A stretch of 64,000 nt of DNA from Acidobacteriota bacterium (GTDB taxonomy: Bacteria > Acidobacteriota > Holophagae > Holophagales > Holophagaceae): NCBI GenBank assembly GCA_016213735.1, contig JACQZU010000014.1:310001-374000 (forward strand). Direction: 5' to 3'. Under the pieces are notes generated by a model. The model did not search any database. It was not told the DNA's origin and saw only the letters and a list, made by a program, of their open reading frames with translations. The translations under genes and the position numbers were made by a program. This document shows, in pieces, positions 4,693 through 16,868 of this stretch; positions within the stretch are counted from its first letter, which is position 1, and the number at the start of each line of letters is the position of its first letter.

Positions 4693-6720
4693 TCATTCCT
4701 CGAAATCGAAGGTGGGGCCCCCGAGGTTGGAGGTCTCCACCCGCACCACCTCGCCGTCCATGGTGAGGGTGCTGAGGGTGCTGGGGCGCCGCAGGGCCAG
4801 GTTCCGGATGGCCTGGACGGGGCCCTGCAGTTCGGCGGGCACCGTTTCGAAGAACATGACTCCGGCCCGGTAGTTCTGGGGCTGGGCCGGCTGGATCTGA
4901 AGCTCCTGGAGCTGGCGCGGGTCCACGGGCCCCGGGGCTCCGGTCATGAGGCAGCGGGCCTGGGCCGTCTTCGGAAAGGCGATCACTTCCCGGATGTTGT
5001 CCGTGCCGGCCAGGATCATCACCAGTCGGTCCAGACCCAGCGCGATCCCGCCGTGCGGAGGGGCTCCGAAGGAGAGGGCATCCAGGAGGAAGCCGAACTT
5101 CTCCTGGGCCTCCTTGGGGCCGATGCCGATGGCCCGGAACATTCGGGCCTGGGTCTCGGCGTCATGGATGCGGATGGACCCCCCCCCGACCTCGAAGCCG
5201 TTCAGCACCAGATCGTAGGCCACCGCCCGGCAGCGGCCGGGGTCGCGCTCCAGCAGGTCCAGGTCCTCCGGGTGGGGGCTGGTGAAGGGGTGGTGGCAGG
5301 CCACCCAGCGTCCCGGCTCCCCGCCCTCGCCCTCGCTCCACTCCAGGAGGGGGAAGTCCACGACCCAGAGGCATCTGAAGGCGTCCGGGTCGAACAGGGC
5401 GGTGGAGTCCCCCTCTTCCATCTGGAATTCCACGAGGGTCGCCAATTCCCTGGCGACCTTGACCCGCAAATCCCCGAGGATGCGGGAGGTCTGGGAATCG
5501 GTTCCGACGGCGAAGAGGATCAGGCCCTGGGCGCCCCCGAGGCGCTCGCGAAGGGCGGCCTCCAGGTCGGGCGGAACGAACTTCTTGAAACTGCTGCCGA
5601 AGCCCTCCTGGCCCCACTTGGCGTAGGGAAGGCCTCCCGCTCCCAGGTGCCGGGCCATCTCCTGGTAGCCGTCCAGGACTTTCCGGCTGGAGTTTCCCGC
5701 CCCCTCCCCGGGGAAACACAGGGCCCGCACCCGTCGCTGGCCCTGGCTTTCAGCCGCGGCGCGGAAGAGGTTGAACTCGCTGGTGGCGAAGAGCGGCGTG
5801 AGGTCCAGGATCTTCAGGGGGCAGCGCAGATCGGGCTTGTCCGATCCGTACCATTCCATGGCGTCCCGGTAGGCCAGGCGGGGAAAGGGCGCCTGGACCT
5901 TCTTCCCGACCTGGGCCGCGAGCTCGACCATCAAGGGTTCGATGACTCCCTGGACATCCTCCTGGCGCACGAAGCTCATCTCGACGTCCACCTGCGAGAA
6001 CTCGGGCTGGCGGTCGGCCCGGAGGTCCTCGTCCCTGAAGCACCGGCAGATCTGGAAGTAGCGCTCGAAACCCGAAACCTGGAGGAGTTGCTTGAAGAGC
6101 TGGGGGCTCTGGGGCAGGGCGAAGAATTCCCCGGGATGGACCCGGCTGGGAACCAGGTAGTCTCGCGCTCCCTCGGGAGTGGATTTGGTGAGGATGGGGG
6201 TCTCCACCTCGATGAAGTCGTGGCGCAGGAAGTGCTCCCGGACGGTGGCGGCCACCCTGCTCCTCAGCTGGAGGTTCCGCTGGAGCTTCTCCCGCCGCAG
6301 GTCCAGGAACCGGTGCTTCAGGCGAAGGTCCTCGTTGGATTCCTGACCGGCATCCTCGACCGGGATGGGCGGTGTCTGGGCGGTGTTCAGGATGCGCAGG
6401 GCGGTCAGTCGCACCTCCACATCGCCGGTGGCCATGTTGGGATTCTTCGCCTCCCGCTCGGCGACCACGCCCTCGGCGGCCAGCACGAACTCGCTTCGCA
6501 CCGCCTTAAGTCGGCCCACCAGCTCCGGATCGGCCTGGGTGGTGTCGGCCACCAGCTGCACCACTCCCCAACGGTCCCGCAGGTCAAGAAACACCAGCGA
6601 TCCCAGGTTGCGGGACCTCCGGCACCAGCCCAGGAGCCGGACGGTCTGGCCGGCGTGGTCCAGGCGCAACTCGCCGTTGCGGTGGGATCTTTGAAAGTCG
6701 CCGAGAGGGTCCAGTCGCAT
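4693..6720 (-). CDS. aspS: aspartyl-tRNA synthetase with C-terminal extension
   Basis: This is a bacterial-type class IIb AspRS that charges tRNA-Asp. It has an N-terminal OB fold (RSHRNGEL...GWCRRSRNLGSLVFLDLRDRWG), motif 2 (FQICRCFRDEDLRADRQPEFSQVDVEMSF), a central GAD insertion, and motif 3 (GIALGLDRLVMILAGTDNIREVIAFPKT). The usual C-terminal end (LMTGAPGPVDPRQLQELQI) falls near residue 609, yet the frame continues for 66 more residues of unrecognised sequence ending GGPTFDFEE. The ATG at 6720 was chosen because GGAGAG lies just upstream; an in-frame ATG at 6738 lacks such a site. The whole gene is open with no sign of frameshift. It is divergent from the respiratory operon. Confidence 0.95.
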   Translation of the reverse strand: MRLDPLGDFQRSHRNGELRLDHAGQTVRLLGWCRRSRNLGSLVFLDLRDRWGVVQLVADTTQADPELVGRLKAVRSEFVLAAEGVVAEREAKNPNMATGDVEVRLTALRILNTAQTPPIPVEDAGQESNEDLRLKHRFLDLRREKLQRNLQLRSRVAATVREHFLRHDFIEVETPILTKSTPEGARDYLVPSRVHPGEFFALPQSPQLFKQLLQVSGFERYFQICRCFRDEDLRADRQPEFSQVDVEMSFVRQEDVQGVIEPLMVELAAQVGKKVQAPFPRLAYRDAMEWYGSDKPDLRCPLKILDLTPLFATSEFNLFRAAAESQGQRRVRALCFPGEGAGNSSRKVLDGYQEMARHLGAGGLPYAKWGQEGFGSSFKKFVPPDLEAALRERLGGAQGLILFAVGTDSQTSRILGDLRVKVARELATLVEFQMEEGDSTALFDPDAFRCLWVVDFPLLEWSEGEGGEPGRWVACHHPFTSPHPEDLDLLERDPGRCRAVAYDLVLNGFEVGGGSIRIHDAETQARMFRAIGIGPKEAQEKFGFLLDALSFGAPPHGGIALGLDRLVMILAGTDNIREVIAFPKTAQARCLMTGAPGPVDPRQLQELQIQPAQPQNYRAGVMFFETVPAELQGPVQAIRNLALRRPSTLSTLTMDGEVVRVETSNLGGPTFDFEE

Positions 6721-6795: not shown

Positions 6796-6824
6796 TTGAC
6801 AATGAATACCGATCCGATATTAAT
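6796..6824 (+). promoter_or_regulatory. sigma-70-type promoter of the respiratory operon
   Basis: A perfect -35 hexamer TTGACA (6796-6801) is followed about 16-17 bases later by an AT-rich -10 candidate (TATTAA/ATTAAT) inside the only AT-rich patch of this intergenic region. It points to the Rrf2-type regulator gene, which starts at 6853. The -10 region lies within a long palindrome, so a bound repressor would cover it. Confidence 0.7.
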
Positions 6825-6837
6825 ATCGAATCAGTAT
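6806..6837. promoter_or_regulatory. 32-bp palindromic operator, probable Rrf2-type binding site
   Basis: The core CGATATTAATATCG (6815-6828) is a perfect 14-bp palindrome. Nine flanking bases on each side (6806-6814 and 6829-6837) pair at seven of nine positions, giving a 32-bp near-perfect inverted repeat that covers the -10 region. The adjacent gene encodes an Rrf2-family Fe-S regulator, and such dimers commonly bind AT-rich palindromes in their own promoters. Autoregulation and control of the whole operon are therefore inferred, not shown. Confidence 0.65.
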
Positions 6838-6852
6838 CATTACCTGGATGGC

Positions 6853-7341
6853 ATGTTAGGGATCGGACGACAGACGGACTACGCGGCCAGGCTCCTCCTT
6901 CACCTGGCCTGCCTCGAACCCGAGGCCCAGGTGACCATTGCCGAGGTCGCCGCGCAACGGGGCTTGCCGGCCGCCTTCGTGCGTCGTCTGGTGGGAAAGC
7001 TCACCCGCGCGGGCCTGCTTGCCTCGGTGCGGGGAATGGGCGGCGGCATCCGCCTGGCTAGGCCAGCCAGCCAGATCACCCTGCTGGACCTGGTCCAGGC
7101 CATGGAGGGCGGGGTGGCCATCAACCATTGCGTGGACAACCTGCAGAGCTGCCCCCTGGCGCTGCACTGCCCGGTACAGTCCGCCTGGAGCGACGTGACA
7201 CGGTCCCTGGAATCCAGCCTGAAGGAGGTGACCTTCGCCCGGCTGGCTGCCCACCCGAGCCACCACGCCGCCGCCCACCGCAGCCGGGCCGCGATGGAGA
7301 GCCCCGCGGCGAGGCGGTTGAAGGTCAGCGGGGAGCGGTGA
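6853..7341 (+). CDS. Rrf2-family Fe-S transcriptional regulator
   Basis: The 162-residue protein has an N-terminal winged helix (QTDYAARLLLHLA ... TIAEVAAQRGLPAAFVRRLVGKLTRAGLLASVRGMGGGIRLARP), the Rrf2 hallmark. Three cysteines (C93, C100, C106) are spaced like the cluster ligands of IscR, NsrR and RsrR, so it probably senses redox state, NO or Fe-S status through a [2Fe-2S] or [4Fe-4S] cluster. The C-terminal ~35 residues are His/Ala/Arg rich. It is the first gene of the bc/cbb3 operon, overlaps ccoS by one base (TGATG), and has a strong palindrome over its promoter. The frame is open further upstream, but that part is antisense to aspS. Confidence 0.88.
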   Translation: MLGIGRQTDYAARLLLHLACLEPEAQVTIAEVAAQRGLPAAFVRRLVGKLTRAGLLASVRGMGGGIRLARPASQITLLDLVQAMEGGVAINHCVDNLQSCPLALHCPVQSAWSDVTRSLESSLKEVTFARLAAHPSHHAAAHRSRAAMESPAARRLKVSGER

Positions 7342-7538
7342 TGGAGTTCAGCTGGATCACCATCGCCGCCAGCCTCGCCATGGGGTTGGGGGCTCTGTTC
7401 CTGTTCGTGTTCTCGGTGAAGCGCGGCTGGTTCAAGGACATCGAGGACGCCAAGTACCAGGTCTTCTGGGCAGAACCCGAGCCCGGGAGGCCATCCATCA
7501 AGGAGGGGAGGCATGACGGTCAACCTCAAGCGAAGTAG
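7341..7538 (+). CDS. ccoS: cbb3 oxidase maturation protein CcoS-like
   Basis: The 65-residue protein has one N-terminal membrane helix ([21 protein letters not shown]) followed by [17 protein letters not shown]. The pattern of a helix, a basic residue, G-x-F/W-x-D-I/L-E-x-x-x-x-x-F is that of CcoS/FixS, which is needed to insert haem b and copper into cbb3 oxidase. It lies between the regulator and the Rieske gene, rather than after ccoI as in proteobacteria. Its end overlaps the Rieske start by 26 bp. Confidence 0.78.
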
Positions 7539-7998
7539 CCCCGGGGGGGCGCAGGAGCCCGGCCGGCGGTCCATGCTGGGGCTGCTGACCGGCGCCGGTC
7601 TGGCCGGATCCGGACTGCTGGGGGTCATCTCGAACCTGGTCTTCATCAAGCCCCGGGCCACCTATGGCCAGCCCCAGCGCTTCACCATCGGCAAGCCCGA
7701 CGACTTTCCCACCGGCTCCCGGGTGGCCCTGCAGGCCCAGAAAATCTGCGTGGTCCGGGAAGGGGACAAGCTCGCCGCCGTGTCCACCGTCTGCACGCAC
7801 CTGGGCTGCACCGTGGGCCTGAGTGAGACCGGGTTCGCCTGCCCCTGCCACGGATCCCGGTTCGACCACGACGGCGTCGTCACCGGCGGCCCGGCCCCCA
7901 AGCCGCTGCCCTGGTACAAGGTCACCCTCGCGCCCAACGGCGAAATCGAAGTGGACAAGGACACCGAGGTCCCATCTGGGAGCTACCTGAGCCTATGA
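7513..7998 (+). CDS. Rieske [2Fe-2S] protein of a cytochrome bc complex
   Basis: This 161-residue protein has a twin-arginine-style N-terminus ([17 protein letters not shown]18/R19) that provides both the Tat signal and the membrane anchor. The globular domain holds the cluster ligands CTHLGC (C94, H96) and CPCHGS (C110, H113) with the disulfide partners C99 and C112. It accepts electrons from quinol at the Qo site and swings to pass them to a cytochrome c. It overlaps ccoS by 26 bp and cytochrome b by 4 bp, so it belongs to the bc complex of this operon. At 161 residues it is closer to b6f-type Rieske proteins than to mitochondrial ones. Confidence 0.95.
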
Positions 7999-9272
7999 GC
8001 GCCGACACCCGAAACCGATCCGGTCTGGCCGGCGCCTTGCGCGACCTGCCCCGCAACGTCTGGAACTCGATCTTCCGAAATCCCGTTCCATCCAACGACG
8101 TCGAGCGCTCCGCCACGACCTTCACCAACTTCTTCCTTCACATCCACCCGGTCAAGGTGCACCCGAACAGCCTCCGCCCCATCTACACCATGGGGCTTGG
8201 ACTGATCTCCTTCTTCCTGTTCCTGATCCTGGTGCTCACCGGGATCGCCCTGATGTTCTACTACGTGCCCGCCACGAGCCAGGCCTACGACCGGATGCTC
8301 GACCTGCGCGGATCCGTGGCCTTCGGCACGATCTTGCGCAACATGCATCGCTGGGCCGCGCACGGCATGGTGGCCGTCGTGTTCCTCCACATGTGCCGCG
8401 TTTTCTTCACCGGCGCCTACAAGAAGCCGCGGGAGTTCAACTGGGTTCTGGGGGTGGTCCTGTTCCTGGTGACCCTGCTGCTGAGCTTCACCGGCTACCT
8501 TCTGCCCTGGGACCAGCTGGCCTTCTGGGCCATCACGGTCGGCGCCGCGATCGCCGGCTACGCCCCGGTGGTGGGCAAGGAAATCCAGTTCCTGCTCATG
8601 GGCGGGAACGCCGTCGGCCAGGAGGCGCTGCTGCGCTTCTACGTGCTTCACGTGGCCGTTCTGCCGGCGGTCATGACCGTGCTGGTCGCCGTTCACTTCT
8701 GGCGGATCCGCAAGGACGGAGGCCTGTCCCGACCCCCCGAGGCCGAAATCAAGCCCGACCTCGAGGTGACCCGGCCCCCGGCGGTGCTGGACCCCAAGCG
8801 CACCTACGGGCTGCAAGGGCTGGTCCGCGGACCGCTCACCAGGGTGGGAGACCTGCCGGACAACGAGCTGTACTCCTGGCCCCACCTGTTCCGCGCCGAA
8901 TTGTTCGTGCTGGTGGTCACCGTGTCGGTGATCCTCCTCCTCTCGCTGGCCTTCAATGCGCCGCTGGAGGAGCCGGTCAACGCCCTGCATCCGCCCAATC
9001 CCGCCAAGGCGCCCTGGTATTTCCTCGGGCTGCAGGAAATGGTCAGCTACTCCGCCTTCTGGGGAGGGATCGGGGTGCCCGGGATCTTCGTGCTGCTGCT
9101 GCTGTTGACGCCGTACCTGGACCGCAACCCCAAGGGCGTCGGCAAGTGGTTCGCCAAGGAACGGCTGCTCGCCAACACGGTCTTCCTCACATTCGTCGTG
9201 GTGAACGTGATTTTCGTCATCATCGGCACCTTCTTCCGCGGGCCCAACTGGGCCTTCGTGACCCCCTGGTGA
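7995..9272 (+). CDS. cytochrome b of the bc complex (b6 and subunit IV fused)
   Basis: The 425-residue protein has eight or nine membrane helices. Haem ligands are H118 and H132 in helix B ([15 protein letters not shown], spacing 14) and H219 and H234 in helix D (spacing 15, [12 protein letters not shown]...[11 protein letters not shown]); spacing 15 and the RFYxLH phrase are b6-like. The C-terminal part matches subunit IV, with [15 protein letters not shown] at the quinol-oxidising site. There PEWY is replaced by APWY, as in several non-proteobacterial bc complexes. It oxidises quinol and contributes to proton translocation. It sits between the Rieske and multihaem cytochrome genes. Confidence 0.95.
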
Positions 9273-9279
9273 GGCCGGC

Positions 9280-11091
9280 ATGCGACTCGCCCTAGCCATC
9301 GGCACCTTCCTGATCCTGGCCATCCACGGGGTGGTCTTCTACAACCAGTTCTCACACCGCTGGGAGCGCAACCAGGTCGCCTACTTCGACCAGGCCCGCT
9401 CCCTGGCCAAGAGCGAGGCCGAGCGCACCTCCCTGGCGGACCGGAAGCCGCGCATCGAGCAGATCGTGGTCACCAGCTTTGGGGAGACCCGGGTGGACCG
9501 ATGCACCACCTGCCACATTGCCAGCGACGACCCGCGATTCGTGAACCACGCCCAGCCGCTCCGGACCCACCCCTACTCGCCGGCCCTCGGTGACCTGGAG
9601 AAGAACGGCAAGTGGGAGCGGCGGCACAAGTTCTCCGAATTTGGCTGCACCGTCTGCCACGACGGCCAGGGTCGTGGGTTGTCTCCCGAGTACAGCCACG
9701 GCCAGGACCACTACTGGCCGGATCCGCTCCTCGGGTACGCCACCCAGGCCGGCTGGAGGAAGGATTTCCTCCCGATGCTGAAGGGCAAGGCTTACCTCGA
9801 AGCCAATTGCGCCCAGTGCCACACCGAGCCTGGCTTCAGGGGCACCCCCACGGTGGAGCGTGGCCGGCAGTTGTTCTTCGCCACCAACTGCTACGGCTGC
9901 CACAAGATCGAGGGCCTGAGCGACGGCACCATCGGCCCGGACCTTTCCGAAGTAGGACGCATGTGGAAGGTCGACTATCTGTGGGCCCGGATCGCCGATC
10001 CCAAATCGGTGCTGGCCACCTCGATCATGCCGAAATTCAACCTGAAGGAGGATGAGATCCGTGCCCTAGTGGTTTTCCTGAAGAGCCGGAAGGGCAAGAA
10101 CTTCACCGAGACAGAGATTCAGCGCTTCAAGGTCAAGACGGCCGGCGGTGCGGAATTGGTCCAGGCCACGCTCCGGCCGGTGGTCATCAAGCCCGGCGAG
10201 ATGGTCGCCCAGGGGGGCAAGCTCATCGAAGACCGAGCCTGCACCGCCTGCCACAAGCTTGGCGGGAGGGACGGCGGGATCGCTCCCGACCTCAGCTTCC
10301 AGGGCCTCCTGAAGGACGAGTCGTGGATCTTCGCCCACTTCAAGAATCCCCGCTCCACCGTGCCCGACTCGATCATGCCGGCGTTCCGTTTCACCGACGA
10401 CGAATTCAAGGCCATGACCTCCAGCCTTGTGTCCCAGAAGTCCGTCCCGCCCCTGGGATCGCCTGCCGCAACCTACCAAGCGTTGTGCCAGCGCTGCCAC
10501 GGCGAGAAGGGCGACGGGCACGGCCTGATCGCCGAGCACCTGGACCCCTATCCCCGCGACCTCACCAACGCCGGCTTCATGAATTCCAAGCCTTTTGCGC
10601 GGCTGGTGGACTCGATCCGGAATGGGGTGCCTGGGACTTCCATGCCGGCCTGGGGCAGGATCCTCGACGAGGCGAAGGCCAAGGAATTGCTGGACCACAT
10701 CCAGAAGACCTTCGTCAAGGACCCGCGCAAGGAACCCCCCGTACGCCAAGTCGACGACAAGAACGTGGTGGCGATGAGCAAGGAGAGCATGGACCGCGGC
10801 GCCGGGATCTTCGTCGCCCGGTGTGCCGGCTGCCACGGCAAGAAGGCGGATGGCAAGGGTGCAAACGCTCTCGATATCCTGCCGCGGCCGAGAAACCTTC
10901 GAAACGGGTGGTTCGTGAACTACGCCAGCGACCGGCGGCTTGCCGAGTCGATCCTCTACGGCGTGCAGGGAACCGCCATGCCGCCCTGGATCGACTACGG
11001 CCTGAGCCGGAACGACGTCGGCGACCTCATCAACTACATCCGCGGAATCAACCCGAAACCGAAAGGAGACCAGAATGCTGGAGCAAAATAG
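9280..11091 (+). CDS. seven-haem membrane-anchored cytochrome c
   Basis: The 603-residue protein starts with one uncleaved helix ([19 protein letters not shown]) and then carries seven CxxCH haem motifs, at residues 75, 123, 177, 204, 321, 403 and 515. Sections after haems 4 and 5 end in SIMPKF and SIMPAF, and those after haems 6 and 7 in TSMPAW and TAMPPW, giving likely axial methionines for four class I cytochrome c folds; haems 1-3 are closely set, as in multihaem proteins. It occupies the slot of cytochrome c1 after cytochrome b, and its end overlaps ccoN by 17 bp. Because no separate dihaem CcoP is present, it may carry electrons from the Rieske protein to the oxidase. That role is inference. 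Confidence 0.9.
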
Positions 11092-12466
11092 CCGGGCGGA
11101 GGCATCCGGAACAGGAGCGGCGGTCGTCCACGTGGACGCCACGGCCAAGTGGTTCATCGCCAGTTCGGTGCTCTACTTCTTCATCGTCGGCATCATCGCC
11201 ATCGTCATCGCCGCGAAGTTCGTGTGGCCGGACCTGATGGGAACCACCCCCTGGCTGACCTACGGCCGGCTGCGTCCCCTGCACGTCAACGGAATGCTGT
11301 TCGGGTGGTTGCTCGCGGCCGACATGGGCCTGGCCTTCTACGTCATTCCCAGGCTTTGCGGCGCTCCCCTGTGGAGCGAGAAGCTCGGCGTGGCCACTGC
11401 GGTGCTCTGGAACGTCATCGTCCTCGGTGCGGTGGTGACCCTGCTTGCCGGCCAGAACCAGGGCTGGGAGTACGCTGAGCTCGTGCCTTGGCTGGACGCC
11501 CTGGTGGTGGTGGCCTGGCTCATGTTCGGCGCCAACCTGCTGATGACCATCGCCCAGCGCAAATACGACGCCATGTACGTCTCGATCTGGTACGTCATGG
11601 GCACGGTGGTTTGGACCGCCTTCGTCTACCTCACCGGCAACCTCGCCACCCTGTTCACCACCGGGGTCAACCAGGCCAACCTCAACTGGATGTATGTCCA
11701 CAACGCGGTGGGGCTGATCTTCACCCCGATCGGCCTGGCCATCGCGTACTACTTCATCCCCCGCGCCTCGAACACGCCGTTGTTCAGTCACAAGCTGTCC
11801 ATGGTCGGGTTCTGGTCCTTGGCCTTCGTCTACGTGTGGACCGGTGCCCACCACATGATCCACGGCCCGATCTCCCAGTGGCTGCAGACCATTGCCATTG
11901 CCTTCTCGCTGATGCTGCTGATCCCCGTGTGGGCCGTCGTCTACAACCTCTTCGCCACCATGAAGGGCCAGTGGCACCAGCTGCGGGAGAACGTCCCCCT
12001 GAAGTTCCTCATGTCCGGGGTGGTGTTCTACCTTCTGACCTGCTTCCAGGGGCCCATGCACAGCCTCCGGACGGTCAATGCCATCGTCTCCAAGACGGAC
12101 TGGATTCCAGGCCACGCCCACATGGCGGTGCTGGGCGCATTCAGCTTCTTCGCCATCGCTGGCACCTACCACGCGGTCCCCAAGCTCTGGGGCCGGGCCC
12201 TGCACTCCCAGGCCATGGCCAACTGGAGCTACTGGATGCTGATGATCGGTGGCCTCGGCTTCTTCGTCACCCTCTGGCTGGGCGGCTTCTGGCAGGGCTG
12301 GCAGTGGAACAACGTGGGCATTCCCTTCATCGATACGGTCAAGGCCCTTCAGCCCGTCTGGCTTGTGCGCTTCTTCTCCGGAATCTTCATGTTCGCGGGG
12401 ATCGTCCTGTTCGCCTACAACGTCATGGCTACGGTCGTGGGTTCCAGCTCGGAGGCGGCCGCCTAG
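11075..12466 (+). CDS. ccoN: cbb3-type cytochrome oxidase subunit I
   Basis: The 463-residue protein has twelve membrane helices and all the haem-copper residues: H70 ([14 protein letters not shown], low-spin haem b), CuB ligands H209 (MYVHNAVG) and H259/H260 ([10 protein letters not shown]), and H347/H349 in the GHAHM phrase for the two haems. Y253, one turn before the HH pair, matches the cross-linked tyrosine that cbb3 enzymes carry in helix VII. It is the O2-reducing, proton-pumping core with high oxygen affinity. The start ATG lies 17 bp inside the preceding cytochrome gene, which argues for translational coupling. Confidence 0.96.
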
Positions 12467-12487: not shown

Positions 12488-13057
12488 ATGTTCAGGAAAG
12501 CTGACACCTCCGCCGCCTGGGCCTTCATCCTCGCCACCCTTCTGTTTTTCATCGGCGGGCTGCTCACCACCGTCGTTCCCCCGATGGTTGACAAGAGCTG
12601 GGCGAAGCCCTTCAAGAACGCCGACCCCGCCAAGGGGATCACCGGGGAACTGAAGCCCCTGGGCTCCCTGGAACAGCAGGGCCGGGCCATCTACCAGCGC
12701 GAAGGATGCTGGTACTGCCACACCCAGCAGGTCCGTACCATCCTTGCTGACACCAAGCGCTACGGCTGGCGCGGGGTCGACGCGCCGGTCTCGACCCCGG
12801 ACGAATTCGTCTTCGACAGTCCGCACATGTTCGGAACCAAGCGAACCGGTCCGGACCTGGCCCGGGTCGGAGGCAAGTACAACGAGCAATGGCATCGAAC
12901 CCATTTCAAGAATCCCCGGGAGCTGGTGCCGGGCTCGATCATGCCGCCCTACCCCTGGATCGCCAACAATCCCGCCGAATTCAAGGCCCTGCTGGCCTAC
13001 ATGCAGTCCCTGGGCCGCGCCAAGGAATGGCGGCCGGCCAACGACTACGAGAAGTAG
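12488..13057 (+). CDS. ccoO: cbb3 oxidase monohaem subunit II
   Basis: The 189-residue protein has an N-terminal membrane anchor (AWAFILATLLFFIGGLLTTVVPPM) and a single haem c site CWYCH at residues 74-78, followed by TQQVR. An axial methionine is likely in PGSIMPPYPW near residue 155. CcoO takes electrons from the dihaem subunit and hands them to the low-spin haem of CcoN. It is a little shorter than the roughly 200-240 residues usual for the family, but both domains are complete. AAGGAG precedes the ATG. The gene is 21 bp after ccoN. Confidence 0.94.
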   Translation: MFRKADTSAAWAFILATLLFFIGGLLTTVVPPMVDKSWAKPFKNADPAKGITGELKPLGSLEQQGRAIYQREGCWYCHTQQVRTILADTKRYGWRGVDAPVSTPDEFVFDSPHMFGTKRTGPDLARVGGKYNEQWHRTHFKNPRELVPGSIMPPYPWIANNPAEFKALLAYMQSLGRAKEWRPANDYEK

Positions 13058-13559: not shown

Positions 13560-15497
13560 GTGGACCGACCTAGCTGGCAGCTCCGGGTACCCGACGAGGC
13601 CCAGTACTGGGTCGAGATGGTCAAGTGCCAGCACGCCTGTCCGGTCCACACGGACGCGTGCGGGTATGTGACGGCGATCGCCGAGGGCCGCTACGAGGAG
13701 GCCTACCGCATCGCCCGCGCCACCAATCCCTTCGCTTCCATCTGCGGACGGGTGTGCGGCGCGCCCTGCGAGGCCAACTGCCGACGCGGTTCCTTGGACG
13801 AGCCGGTGGCGATCCGCGCACTCAAGCGGTTCGTCACCGACCAATACGGGCCGGAGACCGGGGATTACGCCAGCTACGCGGCCGGTTGTGACCAGCGGAT
13901 GCTTCCGCAGAACCGAGGCGATTTCGAGCGCATCGCCGTGGTGGGGGCGGGAGTCAGCGGGCTCACGGTGGCCCACGACCTGGTCCAGCTCGGCTACAAG
14001 GTCACGGTGTTCGAGGCCAATTCTGAACCGGGCGGCATGCTCACCGTCGGGGTCCCGGTCTTCCGTCTGCCCCGCGACCTGGTCCGCCACGAGATCCAGG
14101 CGATCCTGGCCCTGGGCGTGGAGTTGAAGTGCGGGATGAAACTGGGCCGCGACTTCACCATCGCGGACCTGCGCGCACAGGGATTCAAGGCGATCTTCCT
14201 TGGCGTCGGCCTGCCGAACGGTCGGAAGCTCAGCCTGCCAGGCGGTGACGCCGAGGGCGTTTTCGACGGCATGGAATTCCTCAAGGCCTTCAACGAGGGC
14301 GTCCCCTTGCCCATGGGTCGCCGGGTGGTGGTGGTTGGCGGCGGCAACGTGGCCTACGACGTCGCCCGTTCCGCGATTCGTCCCTTCGAGGCGATGGGAC
14401 GGGACGCCGCCCTCGAGGAGATGGGCCACGGGGAGAAGGTGGCCTACGACGTGGCCCGGTCGGCCCTGCGGCTGAGCGCCGACAAGGAAGTGCACGTCGT
14501 CTGCCTTGAATCGCTGGAGGAAATGCCGGCCGACAAGGTCGAAATCCACGAAGGCGAGGAGGAGGGCATTCACCTCCACAACCGGGTTGGCCCGAAGGAG
14601 ATCGTGGTCGAGGGCGGCAAGGTGCGGGCCCTGCGCACGGTGAAGTGCCTGTCCGTCTTCAACCCCGAGGGGCGGTTCGAGCCGAAGTTCGACGAGGCCG
14701 CCTTGGAGGACATCCAGGCCGACACCGTGGTCTTCGCCATCGGTCAGGCCTCCGACCTCAGCTTCCTGAAACCCGGCGACGGGGTGGAGACCGAGCGGGG
14801 CCTGATCAAGGTCGACCGCGAGACCTATCAGACCACCGCCGCGGACGTTTTTGCTTGCGGCGACATTGCCCACGGCCCCCGGCTGTTCATTGACGCCATC
14901 GCCTCGGCCCATGTCGCGGCCCGCTCCATGCACGACTTCCTCCGCGGCACCCGCACCGACATCGCCGTCCGCAAACGCTGGCTGCCGGCGGAATACGCCA
15001 TGGCCGAAGGATGGCACCGGATGGAGCGGGTCAATGCGCCGGTGCTGGAAAGCCAGCAGCGCGCCGCCACCATGGAGATCGTCGAACTTCCGTTCCCGGA
15101 GGCCGACGCCCGCCGGCAGGGTTCGCGCTGCCTGCGCTGCAACGTCAATACCGTTTTCGATACCAGCAACTGCATCGCCTGCAACGGCTGCGTGGACGTC
15201 TGCCCCGAGAACCTGATCAAACTGGTGGGCCTCAGCCGCCTGCCGGACGAAGAGGCCTGGCAGCGGCTGCAGCAGGCCGGGGCCGACCTGCCTCTGGAGG
15301 CCTACCGGAGACTGTCCGAGGCCGAGAAGGACGAAATCGGCGGGGTGATGTTGAAGGACGAGAGCACCTGCATCCGGTGCGCCATGTGCGCGACCCGCTG
15401 CCCCACCCATGCGATCCTGATGAAGCGCTTTGAGCATCACCTGGAGTGCGTCACGGTGCCCTCGCCCAACCCTCGGATCCAGTACGCGCCAGGGTGA
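13560..15497 (+). CDS. Fe-S flavoprotein oxidoreductase (GltD-like) with ferredoxin domain
   Basis: The 645-residue protein starts at GTG, 4 bp after the upstream stop. Residues 20-90 form the GltD-type N-terminal Fe-S domain (CQHACPVHTDACGYV ... CGRVCGAPCEANC). An FAD Rossmann fold follows (VVGAGVSGLTVAHDL) and then a pyridine-nucleotide fold (VVVVGGGNVAYDVARSA). The C-terminal ~120 residues add a bacterial ferredoxin domain with CIACNGCVDVC...CP-type and CIRCAMCATRCP motifs for two [4Fe-4S] clusters. The phrase VAYDVARSA appears twice, 30 residues apart. Such proteins shuttle electrons between NAD(P)H and ferredoxin-like partners. Its place inside a cbb3 operon suggests a link to respiration or to CcoG chemistry. 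The substrate is unknown. Confidence 0.85.
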   Translation: MDRPSWQLRVPDEAQYWVEMVKCQHACPVHTDACGYVTAIAEGRYEEAYRIARATNPFASICGRVCGAPCEANCRRGSLDEPVAIRALKRFVTDQYGPETGDYASYAAGCDQRMLPQNRGDFERIAVVGAGVSGLTVAHDLVQLGYKVTVFEANSEPGGMLTVGVPVFRLPRDLVRHEIQAILALGVELKCGMKLGRDFTIADLRAQGFKAIFLGVGLPNGRKLSLPGGDAEGVFDGMEFLKAFNEGVPLPMGRRVVVVGGGNVAYDVARSAIRPFEAMGRDAALEEMGHGEKVAYDVARSALRLSADKEVHVVCLESLEEMPADKVEIHEGEEEGIHLHNRVGPKEIVVEGGKVRALRTVKCLSVFNPEGRFEPKFDEAALEDIQADTVVFAIGQASDLSFLKPGDGVETERGLIKVDRETYQTTAADVFACGDIAHGPRLFIDAIASAHVAARSMHDFLRGTRTDIAVRKRWLPAEYAMAEGWHRMERVNAPVLESQQRAATMEIVELPFPEADARRQGSRCLRCNVNTVFDTSNCIACNGCVDVCPENLIKLVGLSRLPDEEAWQRLQQAGADLPLEAYRRLSEAEKDEIGGVMLKDESTCIRCAMCATRCPTHAILMKRFEHHLECVTVPSPNPRIQYAPG

Positions 15498-15506
15498 TCC
15501 GCTAGA

Positions 15507-16868
15507 ATGACCCCCATGCAGGAATCCGACCATGCCGCGGAGGCCGCCCCTGCGCGGTCCAGGCCGCCGCGCAGGCCCGCCCTGCCACCGGTCGACAAAC
15601 ACTTTCGCCCCCTGCGGAAACGCGTCCACCTGGCCTGCTTCCTGGGATTCGTGATCCTTCCCTTCACCAACCTGATGAGGGTGGACATCCCGAGGCAGCG
15701 CTTCTTCTTCGCAGGCTTCGAACTGTGGATCAACGAGTTCGGGATCCTGTTCTTCGCCACCATGCTCCTGATGTTCCTGGTGGCCGCCATGGCCATTGTT
15801 TACGGCCGCATCTACTGCAGCTACGCCTGCCCGCAGATGATCTTCAGCGAGGCCAGCCAGGCGGTCGAGCGGTGGGTCCGCGGCCGGTTGAGAAAGCTGT
15901 TCCCCAAATGGCCGGGCGGAAGCCGCGAAACCGCGGCCAAGGTCGTCTTCTACGCGATCCTCCTCCTTGCCTCGGTGTTCCTGGCCTTCGTCTTCACGGC
16001 CTACTTCGTCGACCCGAAGGACCTGGCCAGCCGACTCCTGCGCCTGGATGTGGTGTCCGCGGGTGGAATCACCGGCGCTTCCGTGACCCTGCTCACCTTC
16101 CTCGATTTCGCCTTCGTGCGCCAGAAGTTCTGCACCACGGTCTGCCCCTACGGCTACATCCAGGGCATGCTGCAGGATCCCCATACCCTGCTGGTGGTTT
16201 ACCAGGACCCGGACCAGGCCTGCATCGAGTGCAAGAAATGTGTGACCGTCTGCGAGATGGGCATCGACATCCGCAAGGGCCCGTACCAGATCGAGTGCGT
16301 CCACTGCGGAGACTGCATCGACGCCTGCGAGGACGTCCTGCGCAAGGTGGGCCACGAGGGACTGATCCGATATGCCTACGGCGAGCACGGCGGCCAGGCG
16401 TCGAAGGCCCGCGAACCGCTGCTCCAACGGCTCGGCTTCCGCGACGGCAAGCGGTTCGCGATCCTGCTTGTGCTGCTGTTCTATGTGTCCGGCCTCGGGG
16501 CCGCCCTATCGATGCGCCGCCCGGTGCTGGTGCAGATCGCCCCGGACCGCAGCGTGCTGTTCGAAAACCTGCCCGACGGGAGGATCGGCAACCGCATCCG
16601 TATCAAGCTGGCCAATCGGTCGTCCAAGCCAGTGACCGTGAGGCTTTGGACGGAAGGCCTGCCCGGAGCCGAACTGGACCTGCCCGCCAACCCCGTGTCC
16701 CTGGATCCAGGCGCGGTGTTCGACCGGACCGTGCTCCTCAAGGTGCGCCCCTGGAGCGGCGCCGAGGAGGTGAACCCGCTGAGGATTCTCGCCCAGACCT
16801 CCAGTCAAGCCCAGCCCGAGGTCGAGGCCCTGAACTTCATCCTGCCCGCCAAGGGGAGCTCGCCATGA
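15507..16868 (+). CDS. ccoG: cbb3 oxidase accessory Fe-S protein CcoG
   Basis: The 453-residue membrane protein has the NapH-like polyferredoxin layout of CcoG/RdxA/FixG: RPLRKRVHLACFLGFVILPF at the first helix, then YGRIYCSYACPQMIF, FCTTVCPYGYIQGML, and the ferredoxin motifs CIECKKCVTVCEMGIDIRKG and CVHCGDCIDAC. A C-terminal beta domain with the IgG-like FixG fold follows (about residues 340-450). CcoG reduces copper for cbb3 assembly in the well-studied systems. A second in-frame ATG lies at 15516. It overlaps the following small gene by 4 bp. Confidence 0.95.
   Translation: MTPMQESDHAAEAAPARSRPPRRPALPPVDKHFRPLRKRVHLACFLGFVILPFTNLMRVDIPRQRFFFAGFELWINEFGILFFATMLLMFLVAAMAIVYGRIYCSYACPQMIFSEASQAVERWVRGRLRKLFPKWPGGSRETAAKVVFYAILLLASVFLAFVFTAYFVDPKDLASRLLRLDVVSAGGITGASVTLLTFLDFAFVRQKFCTTVCPYGYIQGMLQDPHTLLVVYQDPDQACIECKKCVTVCEMGIDIRKGPYQIECVHCGDCIDACEDVLRKVGHEGLIRYAYGEHGGQASKAREPLLQRLGFRDGKRFAILLVLLFYVSGLGAALSMRRPVLVQIAPDRSVLFENLPDGRIGNRIRIKLANRSSKPVTVRLWTEGLPGAELDLPANPVSLDPGAVFDRTVLLKVRPWSGAEEVNPLRILAQTSSQAQPEVEALNFILPAKGSSP

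Follow-up and report, generated by a model that had tools for sequence, protein, structure and literature searches.

The 32-bp palindrome at positions 6806–6837 of the window (the entire 64-kb stretch of acidobacterial DNA analyzed here) is probably an autoregulatory operator, at which a local Rrf2-family repressor would block the −10 and −35 elements of its own oxidase operon. On the sequence evidence described below, we assign this reading a probability of about 0.77. What the analysis establishes is that the site exists, that it keeps its position and plan among relatives and goes with one clade of regulators, and that the adjoining protein has the ligand residues. The case is decided by conservation and not by symmetry alone.

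The palindrome and the promoter it overlaps

The palindrome reads ATACCGATCCGATATT|AATATCGAATCAGTAT (unbroken, ATACCGATCCGATATTAATATCGAATCAGTAT), is centered between 6821 and 6822, and has 14 of 16 pairs matched. The initial annotation had described a perfect 14-bp core with seven of nine flanking pairs matched, and this description holds, the core lying at 6815–6828. Weak pairing continues beyond the palindrome out to 6802–6841 (15 of 20 pairs), which is the 40-bp extent of the full operator as judged from orthologs. Upstream lies a −35 hexamer, TTGACA (6796–6801, plus strand), the TTGAC part of which recurs in almost every orthologous rrf2 promoter. After a 16-nt spacer follows the −10-like hexamer TATTAA (6818–6823, plus strand), which lies inside the palindrome and matches in four of six positions; the orthologs have TAATGT, TAACAT, or TAATAT at equal spacing. 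The overlap with a promoter having a perfect TTGACA, also claimed at the outset, is confirmed, although the −10 is weak and a standard, strict promoter scan called no promoter at the palindrome.

The operator heads a tight gene series on the plus strand, rrf2–ccoS–Rieske–cytb–cytc–ccoN–ccoO. The start codon of rrf2 (6853–7341) is at 6853, and its stop is overlapped by the start of ccoS (7341–7538), a FixS-family gene assigned by family scan and sequence. These are followed by genes for a Rieske iron–sulfur protein (7513–7998), the cytochrome b of a bc-type complex (7995–9272), and a multiheme c-type cytochrome with FixO/CcoP-like domains (9280–11,091), and then by ccoN (11,075–12,466) and ccoO (12,488–13,057). 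Between about 13,060 and 13,555, two small membrane proteins are encoded, one CcoS-like (MQHDYTYPSVYLAYLFFFLSC...) and the other of 105 aa without a Pfam match. A GltD-like FAD/iron–sulfur oxidoreductase (13,560–15,497, plus strand) and ccoG (15,507–16,868, plus strand) come next; the former recurs, at about 80% identity, in every cbb3-linked locus whose flank is long enough. On the other side, aspS (4693–6720, minus strand; identified by protein inspection) is a divergent neighbor that shares the intergenic region, a layout that is the same in G006.

The initial annotation had called the palindrome far more symmetrical than chance would give, which was an overstatement. When the whole window is simulated by an order-1 Markov model, 0.55 palindromes of this quality (score of at least 12) are expected per 64 kb, and 0.2 with at least 14 of 16 pairs; the window itself contains another palindrome of equal score at about 25,364. 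Symmetry alone therefore proves little. For the short intergenic piece alone, the expectation is about 0.001 to 0.002.

The operator in orthologous promoters

Of the 77 genomes examined from the family, 44 yielded orthologs of the regulator, and more were found in other families belonging to the phylum. Most of their genes are preceded by a promoter–operator, here called class A, of the form TTGACM-AAGGTGAC-N6-GGTAAT|GTTAYC-N6-GTCACCTT. Its half-site consensus, GGTGAC-N6-GGTAAT-RTTACC-N6-GTCACC, consists of six-base half-sites at 12-bp spacing: GGTGAC and GGTAAT, then both again on the opposite strand. The strongest dyad among class A promoters (20-pair arms, 27 sequences) has its center 26 nt past the initial T of TTGAC, precisely where that of the window lies, and pairing in 22 nonredundant sequences is 10 SD above that in composition shuffles. 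When the window is compared with the class A matrix at this fixed offset, p is about 7e-5, and the match at neighboring offsets is far lower. In genera g7 and g11, in which rrf2 also precedes ccoS, the site is kept at the same position, and the core GTAAYRTTA is also present ahead of rrf2–cydAB in other families of the phylum.

There was no left–right covariation among the orthologs beyond column makeup (permutation p 0.75), so that the symmetry rests on the consensus columns. Several orthologs have weak right arms (5 of 20 pairs in G006 and 9 of 20 in G033), and part of the conservation on the left side may reflect the promoter rather than the operator. In genomes that have the gene, the class A pattern matches little besides the rrf2 promoter; it gave zero matches in G034, G013, G084, and G008, all of which are without a close ortholog. 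Pattern scans of the window genome, using the near-exact site and the 12-bp core with two mismatches, revealed one such site only and no second operator, and a scan of named genomes returned one distant Rrf2 only. The CydA search of the window genome gave only a weak partial match. With one site, no second close copy, and no more than this partial CydA match, the window Rrf2 appears to regulate locally, acting on the oxidase operon that contains it.

As would befit an autoregulatory site, the operator lies at the promoter of the regulator gene and is kept when the downstream genes differ, genus g5 being the exception. With regard to the same palindrome being present ahead of relatives' rrf2 genes, it is the position and the four-half-site plan that are conserved, but not the individual letters. 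A second rrf2 paralog has promoters of a different type, class B (TTGACCAAYRGGACY-N7-TCATATTTG), which in genus g4 often occur in tandem with class A. The g4 tandem class B and class A paralogs (L073, L036, L041, L043, L044, L048, and others) are not located beside an oxidase.

The four half-sites of the window have diverged from the consensus, from GGTRAY to a GATAYY-like form. The outer left half-site is GAATAC (6804–6809, plus strand; GGTGAC or GGTTAC in orthologs), and the inner left half-site is GATATT (6816–6821, plus strand; GGTAAT in orthologs). On the minus strand, the inner right half-site (6822–6827) reads GATATT, and the outer right half-site (6834–6839) reads TGATAC. G033 is the nearest relative, with a regulator that is 64% identical and also adjoins ccoS, and its half-sites are intermediate (GATGAC, TGTATT, AATAAC, and GATTAC). 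At the second pair from the center, nearly all orthologs show A–T; the pair is T against T in G033 and T–A in the window. The departure of the window half-sites from the consensus counts against the autoregulatory reading, which has to assume that the window protein has changed specificity.

The Rrf2-family regulator

The rrf2 gene encodes a protein of 162 aa that was identified by Pfam and NCBIfam scans and whose Rrf2 domain scores above the curated cut-offs (116 bits versus 30 for PF02082 and 99 versus 73 for TIGR00738). The regulator was compared with solved NsrR and IscR by sequence alignment. Asp9, Cys93, Cys100, and Cys106 are invariant in 18 orthologs, in line with the claim that an Rrf2-type regulator with three cluster cysteines adjoins the palindrome, and in a profile alignment these residues coincide with the ligands of NsrR of solved structure (one Asp and three Cys), the first two cysteines being one residue farther apart in the window protein. 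Accordingly placed ligands of this kind suggest that the regulator binds an iron–sulfur cluster. All subfamily models score below their cut-offs: NsrR (NF008240, 61 bits versus 182), IscR (TIGR02010, 68 versus 208; PRK10857, 54 versus 275), RirA (76 versus 193), CymR (54 versus 195), and the SUF regulator (90 versus 111).

Oxidase partners across the phylum

Across the phylum, the rrf2–operator cassette mostly heads cydAB and precedes ccoS–Rieske–cytb–ccoNO in some genera only. Downstream of the regulator gene, 12 g4 genomes, G012, G011, and several other families have cydA, in most cases with cydB. The regulator gene is followed by ccoS–Rieske–cytb–cytc–ccoN–ccoO–gltD-like–ccoG in the window, in g7 (G006 and G015), and in g5; for G033 (g11), the contig ends at the ccoS that follows it. 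Because the cassette heads cydAB in most relatives, the conserved operator is that of the regulator gene and not that of the cbb3 operon. The initial placement of the operator over the promoter of the bc/cbb3 operon is thus correct for the window, where it heads rrf2–ccoS through ccoO, but not for the function of the site in general. In a tree of 60 regulators, the best topology has four changes of cbb3 linkage, and strongly supported branches force only one; a single origin and multiple origins of this linkage are both compatible with the tree.

None of the 12 cyd-linked g4 genomes has a bc/cbb3 operon of the window type, and the class B paralog is absent from them. The class B paralog occurs in 20 g4 genomes, 16 of which have an unlinked bc/cbb3 operon; completeness does not exceed 88% in the remaining four. 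Neither the class A nor the class B matrix gave a convincing site when the g4 ccoS upstream regions were scanned. The unlinked g4 cbb3 operons (L159–L181) have a conserved, Crp/FNR-like TGTG-N8-CACA 80 to 150 nt upstream of ccoS, and the same regions also carry a TTGAAAYGYGACC-N5-GATC element. Some g4 genomes (L182, L183, L185, and L186) contain a second, distant bc-type cluster near an orphan rrf2 pair, comprising a cytochrome b that is 52 to 55% identical, a gltD-like gene, and a Rieske gene.

In genus g5, the operator is absent from the promoter of the cbb3-linked rrf2 itself. The motif RTTACC-N6-ATCAC, which resembles two half-sites of the operator, is present 165 to 166 nt before ccoS in all five g5 genomes examined (L160, L174, L175, L177, and L180), with a chance expectation of 0.0006 per region for a pattern that was picked after a matrix match and in genomes that are related. 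In L011, L012, and L013, a perfect or near-perfect G+C hairpin, TTCCGCCCCCGGCCGGGGGCGGAA, is located about 40 to 60 nt before the cbb3-linked rrf2 of g5, with a conserved GGATACTG...GTAT element on its far side, and is perhaps a terminator or attenuator.

Proposed mechanism and alternative explanations

From these features we infer binding, repression, two dimers, a cluster, and a signal, which may be combined as follows. Rrf2 dimers would bind four half-sites 12 bp apart (outer, inner, inner, and outer). These half-sites may be viewed as a pair of overlapping 24-bp inverted repeats, and their spacing points to two dimers, one on each repeat. The bound dimers would extend from immediately downstream of the −35 to beyond the −10 and thereby keep RNA polymerase off what is the only evident promoter for rrf2–ccoS–Rieske–cytb–cytc–ccoN–ccoO and the genes behind. 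Repressor operators usually span the −10, and because the site covers the spacer and the −10, steric repression suggests itself. If a cluster held by Asp9, Cys93, Cys100, and Cys106 were damaged or lost, through NO, O2, or iron–sulfur shortage, the repressor would be released, and both the oxidase operon and the regulator would then be raised. NO, O2, and iron–sulfur status are all candidate signals.

It seems unlikely that a different factor, such as a Crp/FNR-type or global regulator, binds what is a genuine operator, with Rrf2 acting elsewhere. The TGTG-N8-CACA before ccoS of the unlinked g4 cbb3 operons is typical of Crp/FNR factors, and other regulators of these oxidases thus probably exist; the site described here, however, accompanies rrf2 whether the context is cydAB, cbb3, or orphan, and the four genomes without a close ortholog gave no match to it. 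It also lacks an FNR or Crp consensus by inspection, and an FNR reading of the palindrome was rejected. That the regulator activates from the site, or toggles between activation and repression by cluster state, as IscR does, is quite unlikely. The weak −10 could need help, and IscR, depending on its cluster state, both activates and represses, but the −35 is consensus, and both the −10 and the spacer lie within the site.

It is very improbable that the palindrome arose by chance over an ordinary promoter rich in A+T. About 0.5 palindromes of this quality are expected per 64 kb, and the window genome has no close copy elsewhere, but the expectation of 0.001 to 0.002 within the intergenic piece, the center shared with the orthologous operator, and the matrix match (p about 7e-5) argue against it. 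An RNA-level element, that is, a terminator or leader hairpin, is extremely improbable: it would agree with an inverted repeat in a 5′ region, but the −10 at 6818–6823 puts the start near 6830, so that one arm of the palindrome would be untranscribed from this promoter. The other neighbor, aspS, is divergent, and a terminator scan makes no call at the palindrome. The terminator reading was likewise rejected.

For oxygen respiration in one bacterial phylum, the proposed autoregulatory operator supplies a defined DNA motif together with a regulator that can be tested; it is also a natural example of one regulator–operator cassette tied to two different terminal oxidases. The stepwise change of the operator (window, nearest relative, and rest) makes co-evolution of Rrf2 protein and site directly testable. 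Tentatively, and with clear reservation, the cassette might represent a separate Rrf2 subfamily for terminal oxidases, in which a regulator and an overlapping two-dimer, four-half-site operator are exchanged between cytochrome bd and bc/cbb3 operons and shift specificity together. If so, the window lineage would exemplify a coherent shift of all four half-sites, from GGTRAY to GATAYY-like, with regulator and operator changing specificity together.

Comparison with known systems

Autoregulation or promoter-overlapping operators are a general pattern for IscR, RirA, and CymR. These proteins share the family fold with the window regulator, which nevertheless falls below their curated cut-offs and differs from them in operator and partner genes. 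No paper defining this operator or the cyd/cbb3 exchange was found in the literature searched, the coverage of which was limited, so that this is not proof of novelty.

NsrR, an NO sensor, resembles the window regulator in fold and, at the level of sequence, in the aligned positions of its ligands, Asp8 and three Cys. The two differ in cysteine spacing (Cys-X6-Cys-X5-Cys in the window regulator versus Cys-X5-Cys-X5-Cys in the aligned NsrR) and in genomic partner, which here is an oxidase operon and not hmp or nnrS. NsrR operators of 23 bp are known (PMC9338935), and comparison by inspection of the derived motif with the NsrR consensus, gATGyAT-N5-ATrCATc (PMC1274295), led us to reject identity with an NsrR operator.

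Oxidase-linked Rrf2 proteins have been described before. CtaR of Acidithiobacillus ferrooxidans, as described in passages of PMC2754497, is an Rrf2-family protein with predicted control of cytochrome oxidase biogenesis; an Rrf2 gene near cbb3 or cta genes is noted there in acidithiobacilli and Thiobacillus, and the CtaR relative of T. denitrificans is said to cluster with cbb3 biogenesis genes. By this description, CtaR is like the window regulator in family and in oxidase linkage; no CtaR operator was found in these passages. In Geobacter sulfurreducens, the Rrf2 gene GSU1639 adjoins cydAB (GSU1640–1641), and GSU1639 and cydAB are downregulated together under cobalt stress (PMC7726332). GSU1639 belongs to a different phylum, and its operator is not described in PMC7726332, but it shares the rrf2–cydAB adjacency with the relatives of the window regulator in their own phylum, a likeness of gene order.
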